Origin: Halobacillus kuroshimensis DSM 18393 | GTDB taxonomy: Bacteria; Bacillota; Bacilli; Bacillales; Halobacillaceae | Direction of reading: 5' to 3' | Length of the DNA: 64,000 nucleotides | NCBI RefSeq assembly: GCF_000425705.1 | Contig: NZ_AUDY01000010.1 | Location: 124,001 to 188,000 of the forward strand | Part shown: in pieces, positions 18,042-57,125 of the stretch | Layout of the letters: each line of letters starts with the position of its first letter | How positions within the stretch are numbered: position 1 is the stretch's first letter | The notes under the pieces: model-generated | The model's database searches: none | What the model was told of the DNA's origin: nothing | The model's input: the letters and a program-made list of their open reading frames with translations, nothing else | Translations under genes and position numbers: made by a program

Positions 18042-18077
18042 CCTTATTATATGGGATATAAAGGAGGAGTGTTTTGT

Positions 18078-20770: not shown

Positions 20771-20787
20771 AAGGAGAGAAAGAAGAG

Positions 20788-21558
20788 ATGATGGTTGCTG
20801 AGCGAAGGCAGCAGATAGTAGATATAGTGAATGAAAAAAACAGTGTTCGCGTAACAGAATTAAGCCAGATCTTTTCTGTTACGGAAGAAACAATTCGAAG
20901 AGATTTAGAAAAACTGGAAAGCGACGGCAGAATTGCTAGGAGTCATGGTGGGGCTGTTAAAGCACCACAGCATAAAGCCCTCAATGAAATTCCATATTTC
21001 GAGAGGGAAATCATTAACGTCAAAGAAAAGAAGGAAATAGCTGAGGAAGCTGTTAAACAGGTGGATCCTGGAGATAAAATCTTATTAGATGCTAGTAGCA
21101 CGGCCTGGTATATGGCCAAAAGCCTTAGTGATATACCAATAACCGTGTTGACTAACTCGATAAAAGTCGCCATTGAATTAAGCAATAAAAAACAAATCAC
21201 TGTCATTTCCACTGGTGGACAGTTGCTACAGAAATCTCTTTCGTATGTAGGGCCCCTCGCAGAGTCCTCACTGAATTCCTATCATGTTGAAAAAGCTTTT
21301 ATTTCTTGCAAAGGTTTTGATTTAGAACACGGAATGAGTGAATCCAATGAATTGCAATCCATTATCAAAAATAAAATGATGGATATTGCTGACCTTGTTT
21401 ATATAATGGTTGACCATAACAAATTTGGGCTTCGCGCATTTTCACAAATCAATAACAAAGAAAAGGTCGATTGTGTCATTACGGATCGAGAAACTAATGA
21501 GAGCATGACTGAAGCTCTTCGCAAAAATGGTATTAGAGTTATTAAAGTTGAAATGTAA
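20788..21558 (+). CDS. rhaR: DeoR-family regulator of the rhamnose operon
   Basis: A 256-residue DeoR regulator. The N-terminal helix-turn-helix has RQQIVDIVNEKNSVRVTELS and the hallmark VTEETIRRDLEKLE (about residues 32-45), then SHGGAV. The C-terminal sugar-phosphate sensor domain holds DASSTAWYMAK, VLTNSIKVAIEL and STGGQL. It closes the rhaEW-rhaI-rhaB operon, which suggests autoregulated control of rhamnose use through the repeats at 15895-15957, as for YulB/RhaR of B. subtilis. The ATG follows AAGGAGAG. Confidence 0.87.
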   Translation: MMVAERRQQIVDIVNEKNSVRVTELSQIFSVTEETIRRDLEKLESDGRIARSHGGAVKAPQHKALNEIPYFEREIINVKEKKEIAEEAVKQVDPGDKILLDASSTAWYMAKSLSDIPITVLTNSIKVAIELSNKKQITVISTGGQLLQKSLSYVGPLAESSLNSYHVEKAFISCKGFDLEHGMSESNELQSIIKNKMMDIADLVYIMVDHNKFGLRAFSQINNKEKVDCVITDRETNESMTEALRKNGIRVIKVEM

Positions 21559-21563
21559 TCTGT

Positions 21564-21611
21564 ACCACCCTGCAGCTGAATTCAGAATGAAGCTGCGGGG
21601 TGTTTTTTTGT
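21564..21611 (+). terminator. Terminator of the rhamnose operon
   Basis: CACCCTGCAGCT pairs with AGCTGCGGGGTG (one G-T), followed by seven T residues, six bases after the rhaR stop. Confidence 0.9.
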
Positions 21612-21716
21612 TTCCCAAGCCATGCATTGATTAATTACCCTTAAATTAGTTACTATAGATATGTAGATATTTTAAAGTAACAATTCATTTTTTATTACTC
21701 ACAATAAAACACAAGT

Positions 21717-21761
21717 AATTCAACATTAAAACAAAATTAATTGTGGTTTTAATGTTGAATT
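21717..21761 (+). repeat. 16-bp perfect inverted repeat upstream of the second DeoR gene
   Basis: AATTCAACATTAAAAC (21717-21732) is exactly complementary to the sequence at 21746-21761, with a 13-base centre. It lies 56 bases before the regulator start, a typical place for autoregulation. The T-rich sequence after it means it could also act as a second terminator. The CAACAWT motif recurs at 22716 and 22764. Confidence 0.6.
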
Positions 21762-21816
21762 TTTGTTGTTTTGGTGTAGTGTAGAAAATAATAAAAATAA
21801 AGGCGTGAGGGTATTT

Positions 21817-22617
21817 ATGGTGGGTAAAACTAATGGAAACAATGAAGCATTATTTCATTTAAATGATCGTCAAAGGAACATATCCGATTTAGTAGATAAA
21901 AATGGTTCGGTACGAGTAGCGGATTTAAGCAAACAGTTTAATGTGAGTGAAGAGACAATCCGACGTGATTTCGAAAGACTTGAAAAACAAGGATTATTAA
22001 GAAAAATTCATGGTGGTGCGATTCGAGTAGAAATGAGCACAGAAATTCCAGTACCAAAAAGACAATCCAAACATATGGAAGAAAAAGAAATGATCGCACG
22101 TACAGCGGCTACCTATGTGGAAGACGGGGACATTATTGCGATTGATGCTAGTACAACAAGTTTATTGATGACGAGGCATATCAAAGGAAAAAACCTAACA
22201 GTAATAACAAACTCCATTGGAGTAACCTTAGAATTAGCAAGTGAGCAGAGTATCCGTGTCATTTTAATTGGTGGCTACTTATCTGAAGGGTCCATGTCTT
22301 TAGTCGGGAACTTTGCTGAAAGAGTAGTCCAGGATTACCATGTAGATAAATTCTTCTTTTCTTGTTTAGGCGTAGATTTTAAAAGAGGAATAAGTGAAAT
22401 TCATGAAGATCAAGCGTCGGTCAAAAAACAACTATTATCTATATCCGAAAAATTAATTTTACTTGTAGATCATAGCAAGTTCGGCCAGAAATCATTGATT
22501 CGCTTATGTGATTTAACAGCTGTTGATTATTTGATTACAGATAATAGGGTCTCTATCAACACGATTAAAGAGTTGAATGTTCAGGGAATCCGGGCGATTA
22601 TCGGAGAGCAGTCATAG
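21817..22617 (+). CDS. DeoR-family regulator of the second sugar operon
   Basis: A 266-residue DeoR regulator, paralogous to but distinct from the upstream one. The helix-turn-helix has NISDLVDKNGSVRVADLSKQ and VSEETIRRDFERLE (about residues 46-59), then IHGGAI. The effector domain has DASTTSLLMTRH, VITNSIGVTLELA and LIGGYLSEGSMS. The ATG at 21817 follows GTGAGGG; in-frame codons upstream have no ribosome site and overlap the inverted repeat. It is monocistronic, with a terminator, and faces the ABC/kinase operon that starts 219 bases downstream, its likely target. Confidence 0.87.
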   Translation: MVGKTNGNNEALFHLNDRQRNISDLVDKNGSVRVADLSKQFNVSEETIRRDFERLEKQGLLRKIHGGAIRVEMSTEIPVPKRQSKHMEEKEMIARTAATYVEDGDIIAIDASTTSLLMTRHIKGKNLTVITNSIGVTLELASEQSIRVILIGGYLSEGSMSLVGNFAERVVQDYHVDKFFFSCLGVDFKRGISEIHEDQASVKKQLLSISEKLILLVDHSKFGQKSLIRLCDLTAVDYLITDNRVSINTIKELNVQGIRAIIGEQS

Positions 22618-22635
22618 TATTGACTGCTTTTTTTT
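22606..22635 (+). terminator. Terminator after the second DeoR gene
   Basis: GCAGTCA (22608-22614) pairs with TGACTGC (22621-22627), followed by a run of eight T residues; the stop codon lies in the loop. Confidence 0.85.
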
Positions 22636-22714
22636 GGCTTTTCAAGGTAGGAAATTGTAAAACTCAATAAACAAACTCGATAATGTTATTTAAACCAAAT
22701 CAGATTTGATAAAA

Positions 22715-22757
22715 ACAACAATTTTATGTTGTAAACCACAAAATGTGATGCTATAAT
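22715..22757 (+). promoter_or_regulatory. SigA promoter with overlapping operator for the sugar ABC operon
   Basis: TTGTAA (22729-22734) and TATAAT (22752-22757) are 17 bases apart, with TG one base before the -10, so this is a strong extended promoter. A perfect inverted repeat, ACAACA (22715-22720) and TGTTGT (22727-22732), overlaps the -35, and CAACAAT recurs at 22764. That geometry suggests repression by the neighbouring DeoR protein. Confidence 0.75.
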
Positions 22758-22835
22758 AAAAATCAACAATATTCTTATAATTCTAAAATTTACATTGGAT
22801 AAGAAAATATCAATTATTAGTAGGGAGAGAGGGAT

Positions 22836-23525
22836 ATGACATCAATTGGACCATCTTTAATGTGTGCGAATATGGGAGAACTCCGAGACACGATTGTTCG
22901 TCTTGATCAAGCTGAAGCTGATTTTTTTCATTTTGACATAATGGATGGAAAGTTTGTCCCCAATTTTACTATGGGGCCAGACATGATTAGAGAGTTACGA
23001 CATTACACAGACAAGATTTTCGATGCACATTTGATGATTGAAGAACCAGAAAGGTACATAAAAGTTTTTGCAGAGGCAGGCTGTGACATGATTTCTGTCC
23101 ATGCTGAATCGACTATTCATCTACAAAGAACACTCAACCAAATTAAAGAACTCGGTGTAAAAGCAGGTGTTGCATTAAATCCGGCCAGCTCTCTTAATCA
23201 TTTGGATTATGTATGGGACATTGTGGATTATGTGGTTTTAATGACAGTGAACCCTGGCTTTGCTGGTCAAAAGTTCATTCCACTAACTTTAGAAAAAATC
23301 AAGAAGTTGAAAAAATTGATTCAAGAGAATGGAAATTCCATAGAAATTCAAGTAGATGGAAACATCAGTTACGAAATCATCCCTCAAGTATTGAATAAAG
23401 GGGCTGATATGTTGGTGTGCGGAACATCATGTTTATTCAGAAAAGGTGAATCTTTGGAGTACTCTATGGCTAATTTACACAGTTTTTTGGAAGGGCTTTC
23501 AAAAGGGAACGTCGCAAATTCTTAA
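22836..23525 (+). CDS. AlsE/Rpe-family phosphoketose 3-epimerase
   Basis: A 229-residue TIM-barrel epimerase. The start SIGPSLMCANMGEL has the SLMC variant seen in D-allulose-6-phosphate epimerase (AlsE) rather than the SILSAD of housekeeping ribulose-phosphate epimerase. FHFDIMDGKFVPN and DAHLMI supply catalytic Asp and metal-binding His; MTVNPGFAGQKFIP and QVDGNIS form the phosphate and second Asp sites. It probably converts D-allulose-6-phosphate to fructose-6-phosphate, though D-ribulose-5-phosphate is possible. The ATG follows AGGGAGAGAGG. First gene of the operon, 22 bases before the kinase. Confidence 0.82.
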   Translation: MTSIGPSLMCANMGELRDTIVRLDQAEADFFHFDIMDGKFVPNFTMGPDMIRELRHYTDKIFDAHLMIEEPERYIKVFAEAGCDMISVHAESTIHLQRTLNQIKELGVKAGVALNPASSLNHLDYVWDIVDYVVLMTVNPGFAGQKFIPLTLEKIKKLKKLIQENGNSIEIQVDGNISYEIIPQVLNKGADMLVCGTSCLFRKGESLEYSMANLHSFLEGLSKGNVANS

Positions 23526-23546
23526 TATGAAAAGAGATGATTGACT

Positions 23547-24497
23547 ATGACCATTACAGTGGTTGGCAGCATAAACATTGACATCGTGGCATTGACAGAT
23601 GATTATCCCTTGAGAGGAGAAACGATTTTTGGTAAGAAGATCAATTACTTCTCAGGAGGGAAAGGTGCCAATCAAGCGACTGCTGTAGCCAAATTAGGTG
23701 AAGAGGTCCAATTAATTGGTGCAGTAGGAAAGGATTATTACGGGGATCAATTAATCCAAACATTAAGAGATTCTAAAGTAGACACCACGCATATTAAACA
23801 ATCAGAAGATCTAGCGACAGGTACAGCGATCATAACCATTGATAGAACAGCTGAGAACACCATGCTGGTACTGAGGAGTGCCAATGATGACTTGCTTACG
23901 GAAGATGTTGAAAACGCCTTCAATAATTCGAGACAGAGTGATGTTTTGCTCGTTCAAATGGAGGTACCTCAAGATACAGTTATCAGAGCTATGCAATTAG
24001 CCAAGGAAAAAGGAATGTACGTGATCTTGGATCCAGCTCCAGCGGAAGGGATTACTGTCAAAGCGTTAGAGTATGCCGATATCATCACCCCGAATAAACA
24101 AGAAACGAAACATATGCTTGGCATCGATGTGATTGATATTGATTCAGCTATTAAAGCTGCCAAGGCTTTTGAAAGTATGGGAGTAAAGAACTCAATTATT
24201 AAAATGGCGGATAAAGGGTCGATTGTGTATCGAAGCGGTGAATGGACTCATATCAATTCTATTCAAGTACAAGCTCTTGATACAGTTGGAGCAGGAGATG
24301 CATTTGCAGGAGCGTTAGCTTGCCGTCTATCGAATGGAGATGATTTAGTTACAGCTGCTGAATTTGCAACGATCGTAGGGGCTCTCAAGGTAACTAAATT
24401 AGGGGCGCAAGCTGGAATTCCAACTCTAGAGGAAGTTCAAGTCTTCTGTAAGGAAAGAGGATTGACACATCAACTATCTGAAGGAACCACTCTTTAA
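23547..24497 (+). CDS. Ribokinase-family (PfkB) sugar kinase
   Basis: A 316-residue PfkB-fold kinase. The sugar-binding segment VVGSINIDIVALTDDYPLRG opens it, SGGKGANQATAVAKLG follows at about residues 37-52, and the anion hole and catalytic base are in DTVGAGDAFAGALA (about 250). It resembles ribokinase, but next to an AlsE-type epimerase the substrate may be D-allulose as well as D-ribose. The ATG at 23547 follows AAAGAGATGA; a TTG two codons earlier is possible. Downstream, the ABC ATPase begins 14 bases later. Confidence 0.85.
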   Translation: MTITVVGSINIDIVALTDDYPLRGETIFGKKINYFSGGKGANQATAVAKLGEEVQLIGAVGKDYYGDQLIQTLRDSKVDTTHIKQSEDLATGTAIITIDRTAENTMLVLRSANDDLLTEDVENAFNNSRQSDVLLVQMEVPQDTVIRAMQLAKEKGMYVILDPAPAEGITVKALEYADIITPNKQETKHMLGIDVIDIDSAIKAAKAFESMGVKNSIIKMADKGSIVYRSGEWTHINSIQVQALDTVGAGDAFAGALACRLSNGDDLVTAAEFATIVGALKVTKLGAQAGIPTLEEVQVFCKERGLTHQLSEGTTL

Positions 24498-24511
24498 GGA
24501 GGTTACCCATA

Positions 24512-26065
24512 GTGAGTGACTATATTTTACAAATGAAGAACATAAGTAAGACGTTTCCCGGGGTTAAAGCTCTTGATAATGTTCAACTGGAAGTGAAAAA
24601 AGGAGAAGTACATGCCCTGATTGGAGAAAACGGAGCAGGTAAATCTACATTAATCAAAATACTGGCAGGGATTCATCAGCCTGATCCTGGTGCAGAGTTT
24701 TATTTTGAAGGTAAAGACGCTGAGATCAAAAAACCTATTGATGCAACTTTGAAAGGTGTTTCTATCATTTACCAAGATTTAAGCTTATTTCCGAATCTCT
24801 CCGTTGCAGAGAACATCTACATCGGACGAGATAGTGGTAAGAAGGCCTGGAAAAAAGTGAATTGGAAGAATATCAAGCGTATATCTGAAAAAGCATTGAA
24901 AGAATTAGAGGTCGATGTTGATATTAATACAAAAGTAGAGCAACTAAGCATTGCCCAGCAACAATTGATTGAAATAGCGAGAGCTATGGCATTCGAGTCC
25001 AAGCTTATCGTCATGGATGAACCCACTTCTTCTCTTTCGTCAAGTGAAGTTGAAAAACTTTACCGCGTTGTAGATAAGTTAAGTGCACAAGGAATATCAA
25101 TTATTTTCATAAGTCATAAATTGAAAGAGTTGTTCAGGTTATCGGATCGATTCACGGTGCTGAGGGACGGTAAATATGTCGGGTCGTATGATGTGGATAC
25201 TATAGATGAAGCTAAGCTTGTTAATTTGATGGTTGGCCGCGAAGTGACCTATGAAAAAAACCAATCTCAAGTAAAGACTGGTGAAGTCATTTTTGAGGTC
25301 AGAGATTTTTCTAAAAGTGGAAACTTTAAGGATATTTCCTTTCAGCTTAGAGAGGGTGAGGTTCTTGGCATTACTGGTTTAGTCGGTGCAGGACGGACAG
25401 AGTTGGCACAATCGATTTTCGGGATCAACAAAAAGGATCAGGGCAGCCTTGAAATACATGGCGAACCAGTGGATATCCGTTCTTCTGAGGATGCGGTCAA
25501 AAAGGGAGTCGCCTATGTACCGGAAGCCAGGCAGACACAAGGATTAGTACTTGATCAATCAATCATCAACAATATATCTCTACCAGTGATTGATAAACTC
25601 AATAACAAATTCAAGTTCATTGATAGAAAGATAGAAGTAGAAATGGCGCAACAATATATAAAGTCCCTTGATGTTCGTCCATCTTTGCCAGAATTGCCAG
25701 CCTCTAAACTCTCAGGCGGGAACCAGCAAAAAGTCGTCATCGGCAAGTGGTTATCGGCTCAACCGAAAATTCTGATCATTGATGAACCGACGAACGGCAT
25801 TGATATTGGAGCAAAAACAGAAATTCATAAACTTCTCAGAAGACTTGCTAATGAAGGAATCGGAGTCATTATGATTTCCTCAGAGTTACCTGAAGTATTA
25901 GCAGTAAGTGACAGAATTTTAGTCATGCGGAATGGAAAGATTTCAGGAGAGATGGATGTAAATCAAGCAACACAAGAGAAAATCATGAACTACGCTCTTG
26001 GAGGGAATGGGAAACAGCACGAATCTGTTGTGATTGAAAAAGAAAAGGTTAGTCAGGAGGTATAG
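24512..26065 (+). CDS. Sugar ABC transporter ATPase (two ABC domains)
   Basis: A 517-residue RbsA/LsrA/RhaT-type double ATPase that powers import. Domain 1 has Walker A GENGAGKST (about residue 38), the degenerate signature LSIAQQQ and Walker B LIVMDEPTSSL. Domain 2 has the degenerate Walker A GLVGAGRTE (about 289), the full signature LSGGNQQKVVIGKWL and LIIDEPTNGID. This asymmetric pattern is normal for the carbohydrate uptake type 2 family. The GTG at 24512 follows AAGGAGG. The first permease starts four bases after the stop. Confidence 0.92.
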   Translation: MSDYILQMKNISKTFPGVKALDNVQLEVKKGEVHALIGENGAGKSTLIKILAGIHQPDPGAEFYFEGKDAEIKKPIDATLKGVSIIYQDLSLFPNLSVAENIYIGRDSGKKAWKKVNWKNIKRISEKALKELEVDVDINTKVEQLSIAQQQLIEIARAMAFESKLIVMDEPTSSLSSSEVEKLYRVVDKLSAQGISIIFISHKLKELFRLSDRFTVLRDGKYVGSYDVDTIDEAKLVNLMVGREVTYEKNQSQVKTGEVIFEVRDFSKSGNFKDISFQLREGEVLGITGLVGAGRTELAQSIFGINKKDQGSLEIHGEPVDIRSSEDAVKKGVAYVPEARQTQGLVLDQSIINNISLPVIDKLNNKFKFIDRKIEVEMAQQYIKSLDVRPSLPELPASKLSGGNQQKVVIGKWLSAQPKILIIDEPTNGIDIGAKTEIHKLLRRLANEGIGVIMISSELPEVLAVSDRILVMRNGKISGEMDVNQATQEKIMNYALGGNGKQHESVVIEKEKVSQEV

Positions 26066-26068
26066 AGT

Positions 26069-27052
26069 GTGAAATCTTTATTTAAACAAAAGGAATTCAG
26101 TATTCTGGCGATCGTATTACTTATCAGTTCCATATTAACCTTTGTAAGCCCTGTTTTCCTAACGGTCGGAAATTTGTTGGACCTCATAGAAGGCAACGTC
26201 GTTATAGGGATATTAGCAATAGGAATGACTTTAATTATCATCACCAGCGATATTGATGTATCGGTTGCAGCTGTAACAACAGCAGTGGCCGTAAGTATTA
26301 GTTATCTGTTCGGTTTTTTACCTGATAGTTGGATTTCTGTTCTCCTGTTATTTTTATTTGCTCCAGTGATTGGATTAGTGATGGGTCTCTTCAATGGATT
26401 ACTTGTTTCAAAAATTGAGATTCCAGCGATTGTTGTAACGCTTGGAACCTTAAATATCATAGCGGGCCTTGTACTATATATCACTAATGGTAACTACGTC
26501 AATAGTACCAGCTTCCCTCAATCTTTCTTATCTTTCTCGAATATTGAAATTTTAGGCATACCGATCTTGATTTATCTCCTTGCAATTGTCGCTGTTGGTA
26601 CTTGGTTCATTCTTAAACATACTCTGATTGGCCGTTCTGTTCTAGCTATCGGTGGTAATACCCAATCTTCTGTTCGTGTAGGCATTAACTATCAAAGAGT
26701 GAAGCTTTTCGTTTTTGCTTATATGGGTTTTTTAGCAGGTATTGCAGCTATTGCTCAAACAGCTTATACAAAAGCTGTAGACCCTAACGGCATGATAGGT
26801 CTTGAACTAACTGTAATTGCAGCAGTTGTTCTTGGTGGGGCCAATATTCATGGAGGACGTGGAAGTATCCATGGAACATTATTAGGTGTATTGTTACTGG
26901 CTATTATGCAAAATGGAATGATTTTAGCACGTATTGATACGTATTGGCAGAATGTAGTTACAGGCGCCATCATCGTCATCGCTGTTTCTTACGACCAAAT
27001 TAGTTATAAACGTTCTCAGGATAAATTAGCTAACATTGAAGTAGAGGCTTAG
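26069..27052 (+). CDS. Sugar ABC transporter permease 1
   Basis: A 327-residue membrane protein of the RbsC/LsrC/RhaP family with about nine hydrophobic segments. The signature region AAVVLGGANIHGGRGSIHGT (about residues 252-271) is the loop that contacts the ATPase. MTLIIITSDIDVSV is the conserved early segment. The GTG start at 26069 follows CAGGAGG. It pairs with the next gene to form a heterodimeric channel, as in Lsr and Rha importers, rather than the homodimer of the Rbs system. Confidence 0.92.
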   Translation: MKSLFKQKEFSILAIVLLISSILTFVSPVFLTVGNLLDLIEGNVVIGILAIGMTLIIITSDIDVSVAAVTTAVAVSISYLFGFLPDSWISVLLLFLFAPVIGLVMGLFNGLLVSKIEIPAIVVTLGTLNIIAGLVLYITNGNYVNSTSFPQSFLSFSNIEILGIPILIYLLAIVAVGTWFILKHTLIGRSVLAIGGNTQSSVRVGINYQRVKLFVFAYMGFLAGIAAIAQTAYTKAVDPNGMIGLELTVIAAVVLGGANIHGGRGSIHGTLLGVLLLAIMQNGMILARIDTYWQNVVTGAIIVIAVSYDQISYKRSQDKLANIEVEA

Positions 27053-27068
27053 GAGGGAGGGGAATAAT

Positions 27069-28031
27069 ATGAAGCTTTCTAAAGAAAGTATATTAGGACT
27101 GATTGCTCTCGGTACATTTTTATTCATGGCTTTATTGGCACCAGGATTCTTATCTTCGAACAATATTAATAGTATGATGTTCCAAATACCAGAGTTTGGC
27201 TTGCTGGCTATTGCTATGATGGTAGTCATTGTTACAGGTGGAATTGACCTTTCCATCACTTATATAGCAGCCTTAGCTGGTGTAGGGGCTGCGTTGATGC
27301 TGACGAACGGTTTTGGAATTTTCCCTGCGATCATTATGGCCATTTTATTTGCGCTAGCTTGTGGAGCATTTAATGGATTCATTGTATCCAAAATCGGTGT
27401 ATCCCCTATTCTAGTTACCTTAGGAACGATGGTTTTGTTTGAAGGAGTGATATTGGCCATTACCAAAGGGAGTTCCATTTCTGGTTTTCCAGATGCGTAT
27501 AGTTTAATTGGGAATGGTTACTACTTAGGCTTAGTTCCTTTCTCTATCGTAATCTTTGCAATCTTTGCTATCATAACTGGTCTCTTACTTAGCAAAACAA
27601 GCTGGGGGAGAAGAGTCTACATGTATGGGAGTAATGAAGTTGCAACTCTTTATTCTGGAGTGAAAAACAGTAAAGTACTTATGAAGGTCTATCTGTATGC
27701 GGCACTATTAGCAGCCATTTCTGCCATCATCATGACCTCACGTTATAACTCTGTGAAGGTGGATTTAGGGTCTTCATACCTTTTGCAGAGTGTCGCAGCT
27801 GCTGTGTTAGGGGGAACAAATATTCATGGGGGTTATGGAAAAGTAATAGGAACAATTTACGCTGTATTTGTTTTCCAATTTATTAGAAATGGTTTGAATT
27901 TATTAGGATTTCACTCTTCATTAGTAGACGTAGTAATTGGCAGTATTCTAATCCTCGTTCTGACCATGAATTTCTTTTCTGATAAATTCAAGAAAAAACA
28001 AGAACAAAAGAATGCTAGTCAAGCAGCCTGA
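27069..28031 (+). CDS. Sugar ABC transporter permease 2
   Basis: A 320-residue second permease of the same family (LsrD/RhaQ-like). It has about nine hydrophobic segments, the early motif MMVVIVTGGIDLSI and the ATPase-contact loop AAAVLGGTNIHGGYGKVIGT (about residues 240-259). The ATG follows GGAGGGAGGGG. Two related permeases in tandem are a hallmark of the autoinducer-2/rhamnose subfamily. Confidence 0.92.
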   Translation: MKLSKESILGLIALGTFLFMALLAPGFLSSNNINSMMFQIPEFGLLAIAMMVVIVTGGIDLSITYIAALAGVGAALMLTNGFGIFPAIIMAILFALACGAFNGFIVSKIGVSPILVTLGTMVLFEGVILAITKGSSISGFPDAYSLIGNGYYLGLVPFSIVIFAIFAIITGLLLSKTSWGRRVYMYGSNEVATLYSGVKNSKVLMKVYLYAALLAAISAIIMTSRYNSVKVDLGSSYLLQSVAAAVLGGTNIHGGYGKVIGTIYAVFVFQFIRNGLNLLGFHSSLVDVVIGSILILVLTMNFFSDKFKKKQEQKNASQAA

Positions 28032-28039
28032 TGCAGGTG

Positions 28040-28065
28040 ATACCCTAGTGGGGTTTTCTAGGTAT
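28040..28065 (+). other. Intercistronic hairpin before the binding-protein gene
   Basis: ATACC-TA (28040-28047, one bulged C) pairs with TAGGTAT (28059-28065) in the 67-base gap between permease 2 and the binding protein. There is no T run after it, so it more likely protects or positions the mRNA 5' end of the binding-protein message than ends transcription. Confidence 0.35.
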
Positions 28066-28098
28066 TATAAATGATTACTATATAGGAGGAGTAAAACA

Positions 28099-29148
28099 TT
28101 GAAAAAATTAGTCTTCAGTTTGTTGATGTTGATGTTTTTGGTTGGGATTTTGGCCGGTTGTGTTTCGGAAAATACGAGTGGGAGTTCTGAAGAAGGTTCT
28201 AATGACAGTGGTGGTGAAGAGAGTTCAGACGATGGTGAAATGAATATTGCAGTAGTACCTAAGCTTGTCGGTATTCCTTATTTTAACGCTTCTGAAACAG
28301 GTGCTGTACAAGCTGGTGAAGAGCTAGGAGTGAATGTAGAGTACACAGGTCCAACCCAGGCTGATGCCTCAGCTCAAGTTAAAGTTATTGAAGACTTGGT
28401 TTCAAAGAATTCAGACGTTATCGCAGTTGCTCCAAATGACCCTGCTTCTGTAGAGCCTGTGTTGAAGAAAGCTAAAGACCAGGGCATCAAGGTTATGGAC
28501 TGGGATACACCAGCTGATAAAGAATTAGTCGACCTTTCAGTGAAGCAAGTAGATGATGAAGAATTTGGGAGACATATGGCTGGAAAACTTGTAGAAGCAA
28601 TGGGAACAGAGGAAGGGAAGATTGCTATCCTTACCGGAGGGCTGTCTGCAGCAAACTTAAATCTTTGGATCGACGCAGCTAAGAAAGAGTTCGATGAAAA
28701 TTATCCTGATATTGAAATTGTTTCTGAAAAAATTCCCACGGATGAAAAACAGCAAGTGGCATACCAAAAAACACTTGACCTACTTAAATCCTATCCTGAT
28801 TTGAAAGGTGTTCTAGCTGTATCTACTCCTGCACCTCTTGGAGCAGCTCAAGCTGTACAAGAAAAAGGACTACAAGATGAAGTGTCTGTGGTAGGATCGG
28901 CTTTGCCTAATGACTCAGAACCTTTTCTGGAAGATGGTTCTTTAGATACTGCTGTTCTTTGGAATCCTAAAAAGCTCGGTTATTTGACAGCTGCTCTTGG
29001 AAAAATGCTCGCAGGAGGGGAAATGCCTGAAGATGGTCAGGAAATTGAAAATGTCGGTGAAATCTCAGTTAAAGATGATGGTAAAACAGTCATCATGGGA
29101 CCACCTGCAGATTTTACAAAGGAAAACGCAGGAGATTTTGACTTCTAA
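28099..29148 (+). CDS. LsrB/RhaS-like sugar-binding lipoprotein
   Basis: A 349-residue solute receptor of the importer. The signal peptide ends in the lipobox ILAGC (Cys21), and an acidic Ser/Glu/Asp/Gly linker follows to about residue 47. The body, NIAVVPKLVGIPYFNASETG to the end FTKENAGDFDF, aligns by eye with LsrB along its length. Lys55 and Asp136 correspond to LsrB K35 and D116, but D166, Q167, P220 and A222 of LsrB correspond to Asn186, Leu187, Val241 and Thr243. The ligand is thus probably a sugar, not autoinducer-2. The start is TTG at 28099 after GGAGGAG. Confidence 0.88.
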   Translation: MKKLVFSLLMLMFLVGILAGCVSENTSGSSEEGSNDSGGEESSDDGEMNIAVVPKLVGIPYFNASETGAVQAGEELGVNVEYTGPTQADASAQVKVIEDLVSKNSDVIAVAPNDPASVEPVLKKAKDQGIKVMDWDTPADKELVDLSVKQVDDEEFGRHMAGKLVEAMGTEEGKIAILTGGLSAANLNLWIDAAKKEFDENYPDIEIVSEKIPTDEKQQVAYQKTLDLLKSYPDLKGVLAVSTPAPLGAAQAVQEKGLQDEVSVVGSALPNDSEPFLEDGSLDTAVLWNPKKLGYLTAALGKMLAGGEMPEDGQEIENVGEISVKDDGKTVIMGPPADFTKENAGDFDF

Positions 29149-29166
29149 GGTTTGTTGATATTAAGA

Positions 29167-29214
29167 AAGGGCCGACCAAACCTGTATATATTTCCTTTGG
29201 TCGTGCCTTTTTTT
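29167..29214 (+). terminator. Terminator after the binding-protein gene
   Basis: GGCCGACCAAA pairs with TTTGGTCGTGCC (one bulge), followed by seven T residues. The three downstream genes probably depend on read-through, as no good promoter was seen in the gap of about 40 bases. Confidence 0.82.
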
Positions 29215-29255
29215 GATGAAGGATCATTTATTTTTCATTAGTTGGAGTGGATAGT

Positions 29256-30200
29256 ATGAACCAGAACTATCAAATCAAGAGTGAAGAGATAAAGAAGAAA
29301 TTCTTGGCCTTGAAAAAAAAGAGCCCTGAATTATTTGAAAAAAGATTGAATCTTTCTTGGAGTAACTGGGGGTTCGGGTTTGAATCCCTGGAAGATTCTG
29401 TTGTCCGTTTGAAGAATGCAGGAATTAACTATGTTGAACTGCACGGAAACCATTATGGTGAGGATCTTGGTTATGAAATTGACCGAACATTAACGGTTCT
29501 GAATAAGCATGATATGAAAGTTTCAGGTGTTTGTGGAATGTTTTCATCTGAGAATGATTTATCTAGTAATAACCCAAGAAACAGGCAGAATGCCATTGGT
29601 TATATAAAAAGGGAAGTACAATTCACTAATATTGTTGGAGGACATTATTTACTGGTGGTTCCAGGGGCTGTTGGTCGTCCTGAAGCGTACGATGAGATGG
29701 AATTTGAAAGAAGTGTTGCAACGCTTGAAAATTTGGGGGATCTTTTCTTGCAAAATCAAATCAAAGCTGCTATCGAGCCGGTCCGAGCTGCGGAAGTAAG
29801 CTTTGTTCATACGGTTAAAGATGCACAATATTATATTGAAGCTGTTGGACATGAGGGGATCCAACATATCAATGGAGATATCTATCATATGCAAACCGAA
29901 GAGACTCACATAGGAGAAGCAATTATACAAGCAGGCCCCCAATTAACTAACCTGCATTTAGCGGATAGTAATAGAGGTGCACTCGGTGATGGAATGATAG
30001 ATTTAGATACTATCATTATGTCGTTATACTTAATAGGTTTCAACCAAGAAGGAAAGTTCGTAACTCCTGAACCTTTAGGCCCTGGAGCTGACCCTTATCC
30101 TGCAATGAATATGAAACCGAATCATGAAAAGTTAGAATACCTGGTCACTCAGACAGCCTCTTATTTCAGAGGAAGGGAAGCGCATGTTCTAGGGTTATGA
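29256..30200 (+). CDS. Metal-dependent ketose 3-epimerase (tagatose/allulose/L-ribulose type)
   Basis: A 314-residue TIM-barrel of the AP-endonuclease-2 superfamily. The metal quartet of D-tagatose and L-ribulose 3-epimerases is intact: Glu174 in AAIEPVRAAE, Asp208 in HINGDIYHM, His234 in TNLHLADSNR and Glu272 in VTPEPLGPG. Such enzymes act on free ketoses (D-allulose/D-fructose, L-xylulose/L-ribulose). A phosphorylated substrate, as for UlaE/SgbU, cannot be excluded. The ATG at 29256 follows GTTGGAGTGG; a GTG three codons earlier overlaps that site. It leads the epimerase-AraD-AraB group. Confidence 0.78.
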   Translation: MNQNYQIKSEEIKKKFLALKKKSPELFEKRLNLSWSNWGFGFESLEDSVVRLKNAGINYVELHGNHYGEDLGYEIDRTLTVLNKHDMKVSGVCGMFSSENDLSSNNPRNRQNAIGYIKREVQFTNIVGGHYLLVVPGAVGRPEAYDEMEFERSVATLENLGDLFLQNQIKAAIEPVRAAEVSFVHTVKDAQYYIEAVGHEGIQHINGDIYHMQTEETHIGEAIIQAGPQLTNLHLADSNRGALGDGMIDLDTIIMSLYLIGFNQEGKFVTPEPLGPGADPYPAMNMKPNHEKLEYLVTQTASYFRGREAHVLGL

Positions 30201-30233
30201 TGAAAAATTCACAGAAACAGGAAGGTGTTTGTC

Positions 30234-30923
30234 TTGCTCGATCAATTAAAACAAGAGGTATTAGAAGCAAACCTTTCTTTAGAAAAATATAAGTTAGTCA
30301 CTTTTACATGGGGAAACGCGAGTGGGATTGACAGAGACTCTGGACTTATCGTCATTAAACCGAGCGGTATCCCATATCCCGAATTATCTTCAGAAGACTT
30401 GGCAGTTATTGATTTAGATGGAAATCTGGTAGAGGGAAAGTGGAAACCTTCTTCAGATGCGCCGACTCATCAGGTCCTTTACGATACATTTCCCAATATA
30501 GGAGGGGTTGTTCATACTCACTCTTTATGGGGAACGTGCTGGGCACAGTCAGGTAAATCCATTCCTGTTTTAGGTACTACTCATGCTGACTATTTTTATG
30601 GAAAGATTCCTTGTACAAGACCTATGGAAAGTGCAGAAATACTGGGCGACTACGAAAAAGAAACGGGTAAGGTGATTACGGAAACTTTCCGGGATTTGGA
30701 TCCAGACGCAATACCAGGCGTCCTAGTTAATAACCATGCGCCTTTTACATGGGGCAAAGATCCCATGGAAGCCTTTCACAATTCAGTAGTTCTTGAAGAA
30801 GTTGCAAAAATGGCGTTGTACACCTATCAATTGGATCATCAAATCAATTCTATAGATGAGAATCTATTAGACAAACATTATTTAAGAAAACATGGATCAA
30901 AAGCCTACTATGGCCAATCGTAG
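30234..30923 (+). CDS. araD: L-ribulose-5-phosphate 4-epimerase
   Basis: A 229-residue class II aldolase-fold epimerase that turns L-ribulose-5-phosphate into D-xylulose-5-phosphate. [57 protein letters not shown] (zinc histidines), [10 protein letters not shown] and [12 protein letters not shown] match Bacillus AraD throughout, as does the tail [13 protein letters not shown]. The start is taken as TTG at 30234, giving a beginning collinear with B. subtilis MLETLKKEV; a GTG three codons upstream overlaps the ribosome site GGAAGG. Confidence 0.95.
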
Positions 30924-30940
30924 TTAAGGGAGGAAGAACA

Positions 30941-32656
30941 TTGAAAAATGGAAAATACACCATTGGTATAGACTTTGGAACAGAGTCAGGAAGGGCTGTA
31001 ATCGTTTCATTATCAACAGGGGAAGAAATTGCAGAAGATGTTACTTCCTATCCACACGGAGTGATAGATGATACATTACCACAATCTAATATTAAATTAG
31101 ATTTTGAGTGGGCCCTTCAACATCCAGGAGATTATATGGAAGTTTTAAAATCCTCTGTACCCGCCGTGATTAAAAAAGCGAATGTGGATCCAACTTCTAT
31201 TATCGGAATAGGTATAGATTTTACCTCCTGTACGATATTACCGATTGATGAAGTTGGTGAGCCGTTGTCTTTTAAAGAAAAATTCACTCATGACCCACAT
31301 AGTTGGGTGAAGCTTTGGAAACATCATGCAGCTCAAGATGAGGCTAATAAAATCAACGAAATCGCTGCAAGCCGTGGTGAAAAGTTTTTATCTAGATATG
31401 GAGGAAAGATATCCTCCGAGTGGATGATTGCGAAAATTTGGGAAATACTTAATGAAGCTCCTGATGTTTATGAAGCCACCGATCAATTCATGGAAGCTAC
31501 GGACTGGGTAGTATCCAAGTTGACGAATAATCTAATAAAGAATAGTTGTACTGCTGGCTATAAAGCAATCTGGCATAAACAAGAAGGTTATCCAAGCAAA
31601 GAATTTTTCAAAGCATTGGATCCACGGATGGAGAATTTGACGGAAACTAAATTACGTGGAGAAGTGGTTCCACTTGGTACAAAGGCAGGAGAACTGACCG
31701 AAGAAATGGCCTCCCTCATGGGTCTGTCCCCGGGGATTTCAGTAGCTGTTGGAAATGTTGATGCTCACGCATCTGTTCCCGGAATGGGAGTAGTGACACC
31801 TGGTAAAATGGTGATGGCGATGGGGACGTCGACTTGCCATATGATACTTGGAACGGAAGAAGTAGAGATTGAAGGAATGTGCGGCGTTGTCGAAGATGGT
31901 ATCATCCCAGGTTACTATGGATATGAAGCTGGACAATCAGCGGTTGGTGATATATTCGGCTGGTATGTGAATGAAGCCGTTCCTTCTTATATAAAGGAAA
32001 AGGCAGAGCAAGATAAGATGAATACTCATCAGTGGTTAGAAACTCAAGCCAGCAAATACCAACCAGGTGAAACCGGATTGATTGCATTGGATTGGTGGAA
32101 CGGTAATCGCTCCGTATTAGTGGATGCGGAATTGAGTGGTCTATTAGTAGGGGCTACTTTACAAACCAAGCCAGAGGAAGTTTATCGTACTTTAATTGAA
32201 GCTACTGCTTTTGGTACTCGAAAAATAATTGATTCATTTCATGAAAATGGTGTACAGGTAGATGAGCTATATGTGTGTGGTGGCTTGCCGCAAAAAAACA
32301 AACTTCTTCTTCAAATCTACGCAGATGTAACGAATCGAACGATTACCATTGCAGACTCTATTCAAACCCCTGCCTTGGGTGCAGCTATGTTTGGTGCTGT
32401 AGCGGCTGGGTCGGACGAAGGCGGTTACGATAATATCGTGGAAGCGGCTCAGTATATGGCCAGGTTAAAAGAGGACAAAATAAAACCGATTCCTCATCAT
32501 GTAGAGATATACGATGAACTTTATCGAGAATATAGTAAATTGCATGATTATTTTGGCAGAGGAGAAAATGATGTCATGAAACGTTTGAAAGAGATTCGCT
32601 CAAACACAAACCTTAATCATAAGGTGGGAAGTTCAGCTGAATTCTTATCTCTGTAA
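30941..32656 (+). CDS. araB: Ribulokinase
   Basis: A 571-residue FGGY kinase phosphorylating L-ribulose (and related ketopentoses) at O5. [86 protein letters not shown] and YADVTNRTI are shared with B. subtilis AraB (about 560 residues). The start is TTG at 30941 after GGGAGG. It closes the operon. No araA (L-arabinose isomerase) is present, so L-ribulose must be made another way, plausibly by the ketose epimerase or the broad isomerase. Confidence 0.95.
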
Positions 32657-41344: not shown

Positions 41345-41425
41345 GGGCAAAAGAAGCGAAACGTTGGCGTCGTATCAGTAACTTCAGTCGCAACGATTGC
41401 GTCATTTTATTAAGGGGTGAAACGT

Positions 41426-42703
41426 ATGTTTAAATTTAACGATGAAAAAGGACAATTGAAATGTTCTTTCTGCGGAAAGAGTCAGGAACAAGTCCGAAAA
41501 CTCGTTGCAGGACCTGGCGTATATATATGTGATGAATGCATTGAATTGTGCACAGAAATCGTGGAAGAGGAGCTTGGCAACGAAGAAGAGGTGGAGTTCA
41601 AGGAAGTTCCGAAACCTCAGGAAATCCGTGACATTCTGAATGATTATGTCATCGGACAGGATCAGGCGAAAAAGAACCTCTCCGTCGCTGTTTACAACCA
41701 CTACAAGCGTATTAACGCCGGAGTGAAAAATGATGAGGTGGAGCTTGCGAAGAGTAACATTCTGATGCTTGGACCTACCGGAAGCGGTAAAACACTGCTT
41801 GCCCAGACCCTTGCACGTATCTTGAATGTTCCGTTCGCTATTGCAGATGCCACGTCTCTTACAGAAGCCGGTTATGTCGGTGAAGATGTGGAGAACATTC
41901 TTCTTAAACTGATCCAGGCTGCTGATTATGATGTAGAGAAAGCAGAAAAAGGAATCATCTATATTGATGAAATCGATAAAGTAGCACGTAAATCCGAAAA
42001 CCCTTCCATTACACGTGATGTGTCCGGTGAAGGTGTTCAGCAGGCGCTTCTTAAGATCCTTGAAGGAACGCAGGCGAGTGTTCCTCCACAAGGTGGACGG
42101 AAGCATCCTCATCAAGAATTCATCCAGATTGACACGACGAATGTCCTGTTTATCGTGGGTGGGGCCTTCGATGGGATCGACCAGATTATCAAACGCCGCC
42201 TGGGCAGAAAAGTGATCGGATTCGGCTCCGAGCAGGTGACGGACGAAGCAGAGAAAAAGGACCTTCTGACGAAAGTGCTGCCTGAAGACCTTCTAAGCTA
42301 CGGTCTTATTCCGGAATTCATCGGACGTCTGCCGGTTATCGGCAGTCTTGAGCAGTTGGATGAGGAAGCGTTGGTTGAAATTCTTACAAAACCGAAAAAC
42401 GCTCTTGTCAAACAGTATCAGAAGCTGCTTCAAATCGACCATGTTGAGCTGGAAATGGAAGAGGAAGCGCTTCGTGAAATTTCCCGTCTTGCCATTGAAC
42501 GGAAGACAGGGGCACGCGGCCTCCGCTCCATTATCGAAGGCATCATGCTTGATGTGATGTATGAACTTCCTTCCCGCGATGATATTGAGAAGTGTATTAT
42601 CACGAAAGATACAGTCAAAGCGGAAAACGGCCGTCCAAAGCTTGTGCTTACAGATGGAACCGTAGAGGATGACAACAAACAGTCACCGAAAGAAAGTGCG
42701 TAA
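41426..42703 (+). CDS. clpX: ClpX ATPase subunit
   Basis: A 425-residue AAA+ unfoldase that feeds substrates to ClpP. The N-terminal zinc-binding domain has CSFCGKSQ and [10 protein letters not shown] (four cysteines, residues 12-39). The AAA+ domain has Walker A GPTGSGKT (about residue 115), the pore loop GYVGED, Walker [12 protein letters not shown] and the [23 protein letters not shown] box. The ClpP-docking IGF motif is in RKVIGFGS (about 268). The ATG at 41426 follows TAAGGGGTG; a GTG three codons earlier overlaps it. In Bacillus lonB comes next; here it is absent. Confidence 0.97.
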
Positions 42704-42724
42704 CGCCTGAGGGGGTTCCCCTTG

Positions 42725-42765
42725 AAAAAGCCGTGCTACGAATAACTGTAGCACGGCTTTTTTAT
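42725..42765 (+). terminator. Terminator after clpX
   Basis: AAAAGCCGTGCTAC and GTAGCACGGCTTTT form a 14-bp perfect stem followed by more T residues. Confidence 0.93.
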
Positions 42766-42818
42766 AGGGGCTTTGCAGGCTCGACCCAAGCATGAAACCG
42801 TGGTTTCTGCTTATAATA

Positions 42819-42890
42819 GGGATACCATAAGGAAAGCTCCCCTGCCTGACTCGAGGCCGGGGCTATGCGTGTTGGCACCATCTGGTATCG
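42819..42890 (+). ncRNA. Candidate structured leader of lonA (three-way junction)
   Basis: Three stems nest without conflict. P1 pairs GATACCA (42821-42827) with TGGTATC (42883-42889). P2 pairs CCCC-GCCT (42839-42847) with AGGC-GGGG (42854-42862) across a 1x1 mismatch. P3 pairs ATG-GTG (42865-42871, one bulged C) with CAC-CAT (42876-42881). The unpaired strand UAAGGAA joins P1 to P2. A TATAAT (42812-42817) lies just upstream, without a good -35, and a hairpin at 42790-42810 precedes it. I know of no riboswitch class with this pattern. The folding was judged by eye. Confidence 0.45.
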
Positions 42891-42961
42891 TTTCGTTTAC
42901 TTTCCACTTACATTTCTATATGATTAAACTACGTATCCGCATTTATCGGAGGTGCAAATAG

Positions 42962-45292
42962 ATGACAGACAAACAAAGAAACAATATACCTCTACTTCCT
43001 CTCAGAGGACTGCTTGTCTACCCGTCCATGGTGTTACACCTGGATGTCGGCCGGGAGAAATCTGTCCAGGCCCTGGAGCAGTCCATGATGGATGATAATG
43101 AAATTTTTCTTGTTTCTCAAAAAGAAGTGAACATTGATGAACCAGCGTATGAAGACCTTTATTCCGTAGGGACTGTAGCCCGCGTCAAGCAGATGGTGAA
43201 GCTTCCGAACGGAACCAACCGTGTGCTCGTCGAGGGGCTGCACCGGGCAGGTATGGATGAATTCAGTGAGGATGGCGACTTTTACCGGGCCTCTATTAAA
43301 ATCATTGAAGATGAACATGAAGATAAAAACGAAGAAGAAGCATTGATGCGCATGCTGCTCGAACAATTCGAGAAGTTTGTGAAAGTTTCGAAAAAAGTCA
43401 CACAGGAAACGTACAACACTGTAGCGGACACGGATGATCCAAGCCACCTGGCTGATATCGTCTCCTCCCACCTGCCGATTAAATTGAAGGACAAGCAGGA
43501 TGTGTTGGAAACCCGTAATGTGAAAGAGCGCTTGAATAAGCTGATTGAACTGATCGGCAATGAACGAGAAGTGCTGCAGATCGAACAGAAGATCGGTCGT
43601 CAGGTGAAAAAATCGATGGAGAAAACGCAGAAGGAATACTATCTCCGCGAACAGATGAAAGCGATCCAGAATGAACTCGGTGATAAAGACGGGAAAACTG
43701 GAGAAGTCGCTCAGCTGAAAGAGAAAATCGACAAGGCTTCCATGCCGGAACGGGTGGAACAGGTTGCTCTTAAAGAGCTTGGCCGTTATGAGAAGGTGCC
43801 TCAGAGTTCTGCAGAAAGCTCTGTCATCCGCAACTACATCGAATGGCTCGTTTCTCTGCCTTGGTCTGAGGAAACGGAAGACAACCTGGATGTAAACCGT
43901 GCGGAAGGTATTTTGGATGAAGATCACTACGGACTTGAGAAAGTGAAGGAACGGGTACTGGAGTATCTGGCTGTCCAGAAGCTCACCCAGACGATTAAAG
44001 GGCCGATTTTATGCCTTGCCGGACCTCCAGGGGTTGGGAAAACATCTCTGGCCAAGTCTATCGCACGTTCCATCAATCGTAAATTCGTCCGAGTATCTCT
44101 TGGTGGTGTGAGGGACGAAGCTGAAATCCGTGGTCACCGCCGGACCTATATCGGAGCGATGCCGGGTCGGATCATTCAGGGAATGAAGCGGGCGGAAACC
44201 GTCAACCCTGTTTTCCTTCTGGATGAAATCGACAAAATGGCAAGCGATTTTCGGGGGGATCCTTCTTCTGCGATGCTTGAAGTGCTCGATCCAGAGCAGA
44301 ACGGGACATTCAGTGATCATTTCATTGAAGAAAACTATGACTTATCGAAAGTTATGTTCATAGCTACGGCGAACAACGTAGCCAACATCCCCGGACCGTT
44401 GCGCGACCGGATGGAAATGATTACGATCGCCGGTTATACAGAAGTGGAGAAACAGCAGATTGCCAAAGAGCATCTGCTTCCCAAACAGATTAAGGAAAAC
44501 GGACTGAAGAAAAGCCAGCTGCAGGTGAGAGAAGAAGCCCTTCTCAAACTGATCCGCCGCTATACCCGTGAAGCGGGTGTCCGGGGATTGGAAAGAGAAC
44601 TGGCCGGATTGTGCCGGAAAGCGGCTAAAATTATCGTAGCCGGTGACAAGCAGCGCGTCGTCGTCACCGAAAAAATGCTTGAGGAACTTCTCGGCCGTCC
44701 AAAATTCCGTTATGGACGGGCAGAGCTTGAAGATCAAATTGGTGCAGCCACCGGTCTTGCCTATACGACAGCGGGCGGGGATACACTTTCTATTGAAGTG
44801 TCCATCTATCCAGGAAAAGGCAACTTGACGTTGACGGGTAAACTGGGAGATGTCATGAAAGAATCCGCTCAGGCTGCATTCAGCTATATCCGTTCACGCG
44901 CGGCTGAGCTTGATATTGATCCGGAATTTGTGGAGAAGAATGACATCCACATTCACGTGCCTGAAGGAGCGACACCGAAAGACGGGCCTTCAGCGGGTAT
45001 CACGATGGCCACCGCTCTTGTTTCCGCTCTTACCGGACGTCCTGTCCGCAAGGAAGTCGGGATGACTGGTGAAATCACACTCCGCGGCCGTGTGCTTCCG
45101 ATCGGCGGCTTGAAGGAGAAATCCTTGAGTGCGCACCGGGCGGGCTTGACGAAAATCATTATTCCTGATGAAAATAAGAAAGACCTGGAAGATATTCCAG
45201 ACAGTATTAAAGAAGGCTTGACCTTCGTCCCTGTGAAACACTTGGATGAAGTATTGGATCAGGCATTGGCGGAGGGTGCACATGAAGGTTAA
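42962..45292 (+). CDS. lonA: ATP-dependent protease La (LonA)
   Basis: A 776-residue cytosolic AAA+ serine protease that degrades damaged and regulatory proteins. The N-terminal LON substrate-binding domain starts at [20 protein letters not shown]. The AAA+ domain has Walker [14 protein letters not shown] (about residue 354) and Walker [12 protein letters not shown]. The protease domain has the catalytic dyad Ser677 in DGPSAGIT and Lys720 in [10 protein letters not shown], matching B. subtilis numbering. The ATG follows CGGAGGTG. It overlaps engB by 11 bases. A structured leader may control it. Confidence 0.98.
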
Positions 45293-56879: not shown

Positions 56880-57125
56880 GTGAAATGCTTAGATAGGGAG
56901 TAGTACGTAATCATTTCTTTCAGAGAGGAAAACAAATGGTGGAAGTTTTCCATGAACCCTGATTATGAAAGTCGCCCTTGATGCAGCTTCTTTGAACATC
57001 AGTAGGAGAAGCCGGTTCGAAGCCGTTATGATTGTGAGTGTGCAGGAGTCTCTCCTGTGAAATAAGGTGGTACCACGGAAATCAAACCCTTTCGTCCTTT
57101 TACTGGATGAAAGGGTTTTTTTATT
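56880..57125 (+). promoter_or_regulatory. T-box riboswitch of valS
   Basis: The leader has the T-box core AAGGTGGTACCACGG (about 57064-57078) followed by the terminator stem AAACCCTTTC/GAAAGGGTTT (57084-57118) and a T run. Stem I starts with AGGGAGTAGTACGTAATC and closes with GATTATGAAAGTCGCCCT; the specifier loop places GTC (valine) at 56971-56973. Uncharged tRNA-Val would stabilise the antiterminator and allow valS expression. Confidence 0.93.

Follow-up and report, generated by a model that had tools for sequence, protein, structure and literature searches.

Comparative analysis of the lonA leader of Halobacillus: a conserved hairpin between two putative promoters

In Bacillus subtilis, lonA codes for a stress protease and has a sigma-A promoter, and the sigma-F-dependent gene lonB is placed between clpX and lonA. 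The forespore-specific transcription of B. subtilis lonB was reportedly described by Serrano et al. in 2001.

According to one study (PMC3174212), the LonA of B. subtilis restrains sigma-G outside sporulation, disturbs sporulation when forced into the forespore, and during sporulation may be active in no cell but the mother cell, so that a forespore promoter of lonA would be a real difference. The Halobacillus locus resembles B. subtilis lonB in having a Lon gene near clpX with a promoter of forespore type in its layout; however, this promoter block precedes lonA itself, and lonB was not found above the cut-off in any genome of the family. Compared with B. subtilis lonA, the gene is the same, and a second conserved block of sporulation-type layout is added in Halobacillus. 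Between the two blocks a hairpin, designated H1, is located. The hairpin in the B. subtilis sigG leader covers the ribosome binding site (PMC5942855), whereas H1 lies ~85 nt upstream of that of lonA. H1 shares a G+C-rich stem of similar sequence with intrinsic terminators and attenuators but, unlike them, is followed by a conserved linker instead of a U-run.

The clpX-lonA region and the genomes compared

The window, which is the whole stretch of 64,000 nucleotides analysed, originates from a 3.85 Mb genome of the genus Halobacillus. The gene order was found to be clpX (41417-42703), a 258-nt gap, lonA and then ysxC, each identity being backed by NCBIfam equivalogs. The first 200 residues of LonA were 97% identical to those of Halobacillus litoralis 22508_20_Filter. 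The features of the region are listed in Table 1.

Table 1. Features of the clpX-lonA region of the window
Feature	Coordinates	Strand	Evidence or detail
clpX intrinsic terminator, inverted repeat 42718-42739/42748-42769 and T-run	42718-42769	+	repeat search
Upstream promoter block (putative), GCATG (42790-42794), 17-nt spacer, TATAATA (42812-42818)	42790-42818	+	family-wide pattern
Predicted start of the upstream transcript, ~7 nt past the -10	42824-42826	+	inferred from promoter spacing
Closing stem, GATACCA (42821-42827)/TGGTATC (42883-42889)	42821-42889	+	7/7 pairs here
Hairpin H1 (middle arm), conserved core, 42839-42842/42859-42862 and 42844-42847/42854-42857	42839-42862	+	RNAalifold consensus; covariance model; compensatory changes
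Linker after H1, mostly TTTCsGTGTTGG in congeners, CTATGCGTGTT here	42863-42873	+	g1 alignment
Third arm, 42865-42867/42879-42881 and 42869-42871/42876-42878, C42868 bulged	42865-42881	+	6/6 pairs here
Alternative local hairpin H2, one C-A mismatch here	42874-42889	+	excludes closing stem
Sigma-A-type promoter (putative), TTTACT-17-TATGAT	42896-42924	+	9/12 consensus matches
Shine-Dalgarno sequence, GGAGGTG	42948-42954	+	identity 0.99 over 42947-42955
lonA, endopeptidase La, 776 aa	42962-45292	+	TIGR00763, 1024.9 bits

The clpX-lonA regions were collected from 44 genomes of the family. These comprised 22 of Halobacillus, the genus of the window (g1), 11 of a sister genus group that includes H. 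andaensis and H. hunanensis (g3), four of Salimicrobium (g5), one and five of Thalassobacillus (g2 and g6) and one further genome (g4). The clpX gene was located upstream of lonA in 44/44, at a gap of about 131-529 nt.

The stem of the clpX terminator was also present in 13 aligned leaders, one of them cut. In the regions L040-L051 this stem (around GTAGCRCGGC) was well kept and the T-tract behind it was often broken up (CTTCTGTTTTAT, CTTCTATATTA); as such interruptions are frequent, terminators here may function with imperfect U-runs.

The three-way fold and the hairpin H1

The initial annotation had proposed a possible new structured RNA, folding into a three-way junction, which started just after a TATAAT and ended about 70 bases before lonA. 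The fold was present in the sequence as described. All three helices were found, the middle arm (H1) having 8 pairs and one T-C mismatch, the TATAAT was located at 42812-42817, and 72 bases were counted between the fold and lonA. The stability of the segment was weakly beyond chance: for 42820-42892 (73 nt) an MFE of -27.2 was obtained (z -1.74, 11 of 200 shuffles equally stable), and a slightly different cut of the segment yielded a z of -1.13 (p 0.14). When the fold was taken together with the remaining leader, the z was -0.37 and 64/200 shuffles were equally stable. The ViennaRNA MFE structure paired the middle and the third arms differently from the proposed drawing.

Further, the leaders of relatives were compared, and the covariation check suggested along with the fold gave compensatory changes in H1 across the 22 Halobacillus leaders. 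RNAalifold predicted H1 alone, with 8 consensus pairs. The cells of H1 were 96.0% paired in these leaders, the value falling to 35-65% in slid registers, and double-sided changes were recorded at 3 pairs (14 cells), including U-A to C-G and G-U to C-G; the loop was variable. The observed cells paired, double-change cells and covariation score were reached in 0/500 shuffles each, and the count of pairs with double changes alone in 42/500. Compensatory changes that keep the pairing, the mark of a conserved structured RNA, were thus found for H1 only, and this substitution pattern suggests that H1 is under selection for its pairing. The linker after H1 had a mean identity of 0.81 over 42863-42872.

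The other helices of the junction fared differently. The closing stem was complete (7/7) in 2/22 g1 leaders, namely in this genome and in its sister L026, and had 2-6 of the 7 pairs in the others. Its covariation was no better than the column make-up would give (246-257 of 500 shuffles equally high). It was 72.8% paired, compared with 33-58% in slid registers, and its register ranked 3 of 319 for pairing, or 7 of 338 without the two complete genomes (L025/L026). As a conserved helix, judged on these alignments, the closing stem is unproven, though not disproved. The third arm was likewise complete in 2/22, the two genomes being those with a full closing stem; 55.7% of its cells were paired (4/500 shuffles equally high), and one pair had a double change. 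No junction base was invariant or nearly invariant across the 22 g1 leaders.

The alternative hairpin H2 showed 73.3% of cells paired (183/500 shuffles equally high), with covariation (135/500) and double-change cells (38/500) within chance. When H1 and H2 were scored jointly, all shuffles were beaten on cells paired, double-change cells and covariation, a result carried by H1. The whole junction derived from the MFE structure, which includes the H1 region, was equalled by 2/500 shuffles on cells paired and 3/500 on covariation, and by 260/500 on double-change pairs and 413/500 on pair types. Hence, the proposal of a new structured RNA in front of lonA was upheld as regards a conserved H1 and found no support as regards a three-way junction forming a compact aptamer.

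The inter-promoter segment was also folded leader by leader. In 16 of 23 leaders, picked as representatives, it gave a mean z of -1.95, whereas the adjacent promoter/5'UTR stretch averaged +0.49; the stretch after H1 averaged -1.04 over 16 leaders. The corresponding segment of the 11 g3 genomes had a mean z of -0.02, one of them (L051) reaching -2.20; both flanking promoters were kept there and no overall structure was seen in the segment between. From these comparisons we conclude that a leader structure exists, that H1 is its well-supported part, and that it appears as a trait of Halobacillus (g1).

A covariance model built from the g1 leaders matched the lonA leader in 22/22 g1 genomes, which were its own training set. 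No lonA match was obtained in the 22 g2-g6 genomes with filters whose stricter settings can lose weak matches, and the g4 genome (L048) showed by eye an H1 look-alike (CCCCTT...AAGGGG) that the model missed. Six further matches were obtained at E<=1. The best of these (L251, G014 C7, ~2567-2646, - strand, E 1.3e-4) resembled a bidirectional intrinsic terminator (CCCCTTCACACAGCTGTGTGAAGGGG), and two weaker ones (G008, G028) were hairpins of a similar kind. Since these three are terminator-like, H1 looks like a terminator stem without a U-run. The leader had no match in the plasmid collection.

Promoter blocks on both sides of the fold

The downstream sigma-A-type site, of which 0.5 would be expected in shuffles, was matched by one regular expression in 35/44 genomes and had a mean identity of 0.92 in g1. 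Judged by its sequence, it is likely the vegetative lonA promoter, with a predicted start near 42931, 3' of the whole fold. Because of this position, the vegetative lonA mRNA would probably lack the fold, which would be confined to transcripts starting upstream.

The upstream block was defined by the strict pattern GNATGA-N(10-15)-G-NNN-ATAATA, which was found in 35/44 genomes (22/22 g1, 11/11 g3, 1/1 g4, 1/1 g2, 0/5 g6 and 0/4 g5) and was expected 0.0003 times per mononucleotide-shuffled region (g1, g3, g4). A looser -10 added 3/5 g6 genomes, giving 38/44, and the block was absent in 4/4 g5. The mean identity of the block was 0.83 versus 0.52 in its upstream flank. Counting the pattern in this genome alone was uninformative (6 matches in the whole genome, and 2 when the pattern was reversed), and of three other genome-wide matches examined with their reading frames two overlapped open reading frames. 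The transcript would start near 42824, so the first ~3 nt of the closing stem would fall outside it.

The sigma-G consensus consists of gnATR, a spacing of 17-18 nt and CATnnTA. The -10 of the block was CATAATA in 19/22 g1 genomes; in this genome the -35 and the spacing fitted, and the -10, TATAATA, was one base off. One Halobacillus group of SASP genes and SpoVT carried NCATA/GTATA-17/18-CATACTA, a layout like that of the upstream lonA block. A second SASP group of eight loci (L167-L174), plus L157, did not match the -10 regular expression, a third SASP-like gene (L078) had CATACTA with no fitting -35, and no promoter sites of gpr and spoIVB could be placed by eye. A sigma-G matrix, built from the SASP and SpoVT groups only, ranked the lonA block as the top match within its own intergenic region in 27/35 block-bearing genomes. 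The site of this genome was equalled by 74/200 shuffles and by 159 of the 255,882 scored window positions, an unremarkable score owing to its TATAATA, and most congener sites scored modestly against shuffles as well. What carries the sigma assignment is therefore the conservation and the layout of the block, not the site of this genome.

In C. difficile, according to PMC3789822, a G upstream of the -10 marks sigma-F and an A at the end of the -10 marks sigma-G, and the consensus closely resembles the B. subtilis one. The upstream block has both marks, the G belonging to the pattern kept in 35/44 genomes. The layout of the block appears sigma-G/sigma-F-like, i.e. of forespore type, with a sigma assignment that is weak in this genome.

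Upstream of lonA in Thalassobacillus (L061, L062, L064-L066), three of five loci carried GGATGAAAT...GGTAACAMTA where Halobacillus has CATAATA; GGTAACAMTA we take to be a close sigma-F-type -10. By eye, the remaining two loci had a -35 with a one-base variant.

LonB was found in 0/44 family genomes above the TIGR02902 cut-off, which was passed by 1 of 14 control genomes. The spore protease GPR was absent in 3/44 genomes, all of Salimicrobium; these three also had no upstream block and are presumably asporogenous. However, Salimicrobium halophilum (G037) has GPR and no block, so the link between losing the block and losing sporulation is not a clean one. The pattern of GPR and block is consistent with a role in sporulation, though ancestry confounds it.

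A relic of lonB between clpX and lonA is a candidate origin of the upstream promoter. In the 24 outgroup loci with a clpX match, of 28 non-Halobacillus loci within L116-L145, the clpX-lonA gap was ~143-229 nt; the loci read for this question included no lonB-bearing genome. The sigma-G matrix applied to 19 outgroup regions was equalled by 3/200 shuffles in L127, 5/200 in L126, 6/200 in L116 and at least 27/200 in the others, and the L126 site had a -10, CTGACTC, that is not promoter-like.

Possible roles of the inter-promoter segment

We proposed, with a probability of about 0.5, that the segment lies between tandem lonA promoters and that H1 stands close to the start of a longer transcript that is probably specific to sporulation. 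In growing cells, lonA would be transcribed from the downstream promoter into an mRNA without the fold. The upstream promoter would yield the longer transcript, in which H1 would be situated ~15-40 nt from the 5' end, most likely tuning that transcript as a stabilising 5' hairpin or a leaky attenuator with no sensing of a ligand. As none of the family genomes had LonB above the cut-off, this promoter would provide a Lon protease in the sporangium. It counts against this proposal that the H1 model had no lonA match in g3 even though both promoters are kept there.

The initial annotation had pointed to a riboswitch aptamer or, for a heat-shock protease, an RNA thermometer, and neither was borne out. 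A ligand-sensing riboswitch with a three-way-junction aptamer is now very improbable. The sequences of this genome and its sister allow the complete junction, the register of the closing stem ranks third of 319, and the MFE-derived junction outscores most shuffles in cells paired and covariation, but this last version includes H1, and both other helices are incomplete in 20 of the 22 leaders, the closing stem moreover showing no covariation. No conserved junction base was found, several helices were not jointly supported, and no expression platform reached the Shine-Dalgarno sequence, while the fold is followed further downstream by a conserved vegetative-type promoter. Rfam at the gathering threshold gave 3 matches in the window, none at the lonA leader, and 0 at 8 leader loci; permissive matches (three miRNAs, Thr_leader and Esr41) all fell over the clpX terminator, far below the threshold, and were discarded. 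The folded segment is probably not a riboswitch, because only one of the three stems is clearly kept in related Halobacillus and the segment lies between two promoters. Slightly less credible still is a thermometer that would govern lonA translation in heat. The product is a stress protease, and in the long fold the leader of this genome pairs its Shine-Dalgarno sequence weakly. However, that sequence lies outside the three-way fold, which leaves no structural basis for a thermometer that works through ribosome access; the whole-leader z, Shine-Dalgarno sequence included, was the -0.37 given above, the bases pairing with it (CACUU) are by inspection lost in most congeners, and the vegetative transcript would not contain the fold.

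The three remaining readings carry more weight. It is conceivable, though unlikely, that H1 acts as a leaky intrinsic terminator or attenuator at which most upstream transcripts stop before lonA, leaving a short RNA. The resemblance to the terminator-like hairpins of G014, G008 and G028 speaks for it; in the aligned g1 leaders, however, H1 is followed by TTTCsGTGTTGG and not by the U-run of an intrinsic terminator, and a terminator scan called none in 42600-43000, although the clpX terminator in that interval escaped the scan too. With similar reserve we regard H1 and the linker as a possible DNA operator for a regulator of the downstream sigma-A promoter, at about -58 to -92. Dyad symmetry and a conserved linker (identity 0.81) upstream of the -35 would suit an operator, but the arms change with compensation, as is expected of RNA pairing rather than of fixed half-sites, the loop varies, and the model finds no lonA match in g3 despite the kept promoter. 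A somewhat stronger, still doubtful candidate is the reading of the upstream block by another factor, which could be sigma-E of the mother cell or sigma-A acting on a weak -35. The -10 of sigma-E is expected to have a T at position 8, which is not conserved here, and the -35 position reads AGCATG/GGATGA, far from the TTGACA of sigma-A; the 17-18 nt spacing and the upstream G also suit forespore factors better. In favour of another factor are the TATAATA of this genome, L028 and 5/11 g3 genomes, and the statement in PMC3174212 that LonA is possibly confined to the mother cell during sporulation. The weights given to these readings do not add to one because some of them, such as the attenuator, partly overlap the preferred reading of tandem promoters with H1 on the upstream transcript.

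Tentatively, the forespore Lon supply may have moved to lonA by way of a sigma-F/sigma-G-type promoter, and the genus-specific hairpin may limit LonA as a feedback brake on sigma-G. If the preferred reading is right, it shows a way for bacteria lacking LonB to supply the spore-forming cell with a Lon protease by means of a second lonA promoter, and a testable prediction on sigma-G control outside B. subtilis follows. The analysis also calls for caution, as a three-way junction that looked tidy in a single genome shrank to one well-supported hairpin after its relatives were compared. Among the matches listed in a search of titles and abstract starts of open-licence literature, no structured lonA leader and no Halobacillus lonA promoters were described; a sporulation promoter for lonA may have been described earlier in the primary lonA/lonB literature.

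Additionally, two observations were made elsewhere in the window. Directly after tRNA-Gly and tRNA-Arg, the GC content was down to 0.37-0.41 between ~16 and 32 kb of the window (15975-32656), and nine co-directional ORFs tested in this stretch look like a sugar-use island, with an aldolase/short-chain dehydrogenase, a xylose-isomerase-like protein, two FGGY kinases, a DeoR regulator, a PfkB kinase and parts of a sugar-type ABC transporter. A T-box leader was located at 56881-57102 with 118.1 bits.
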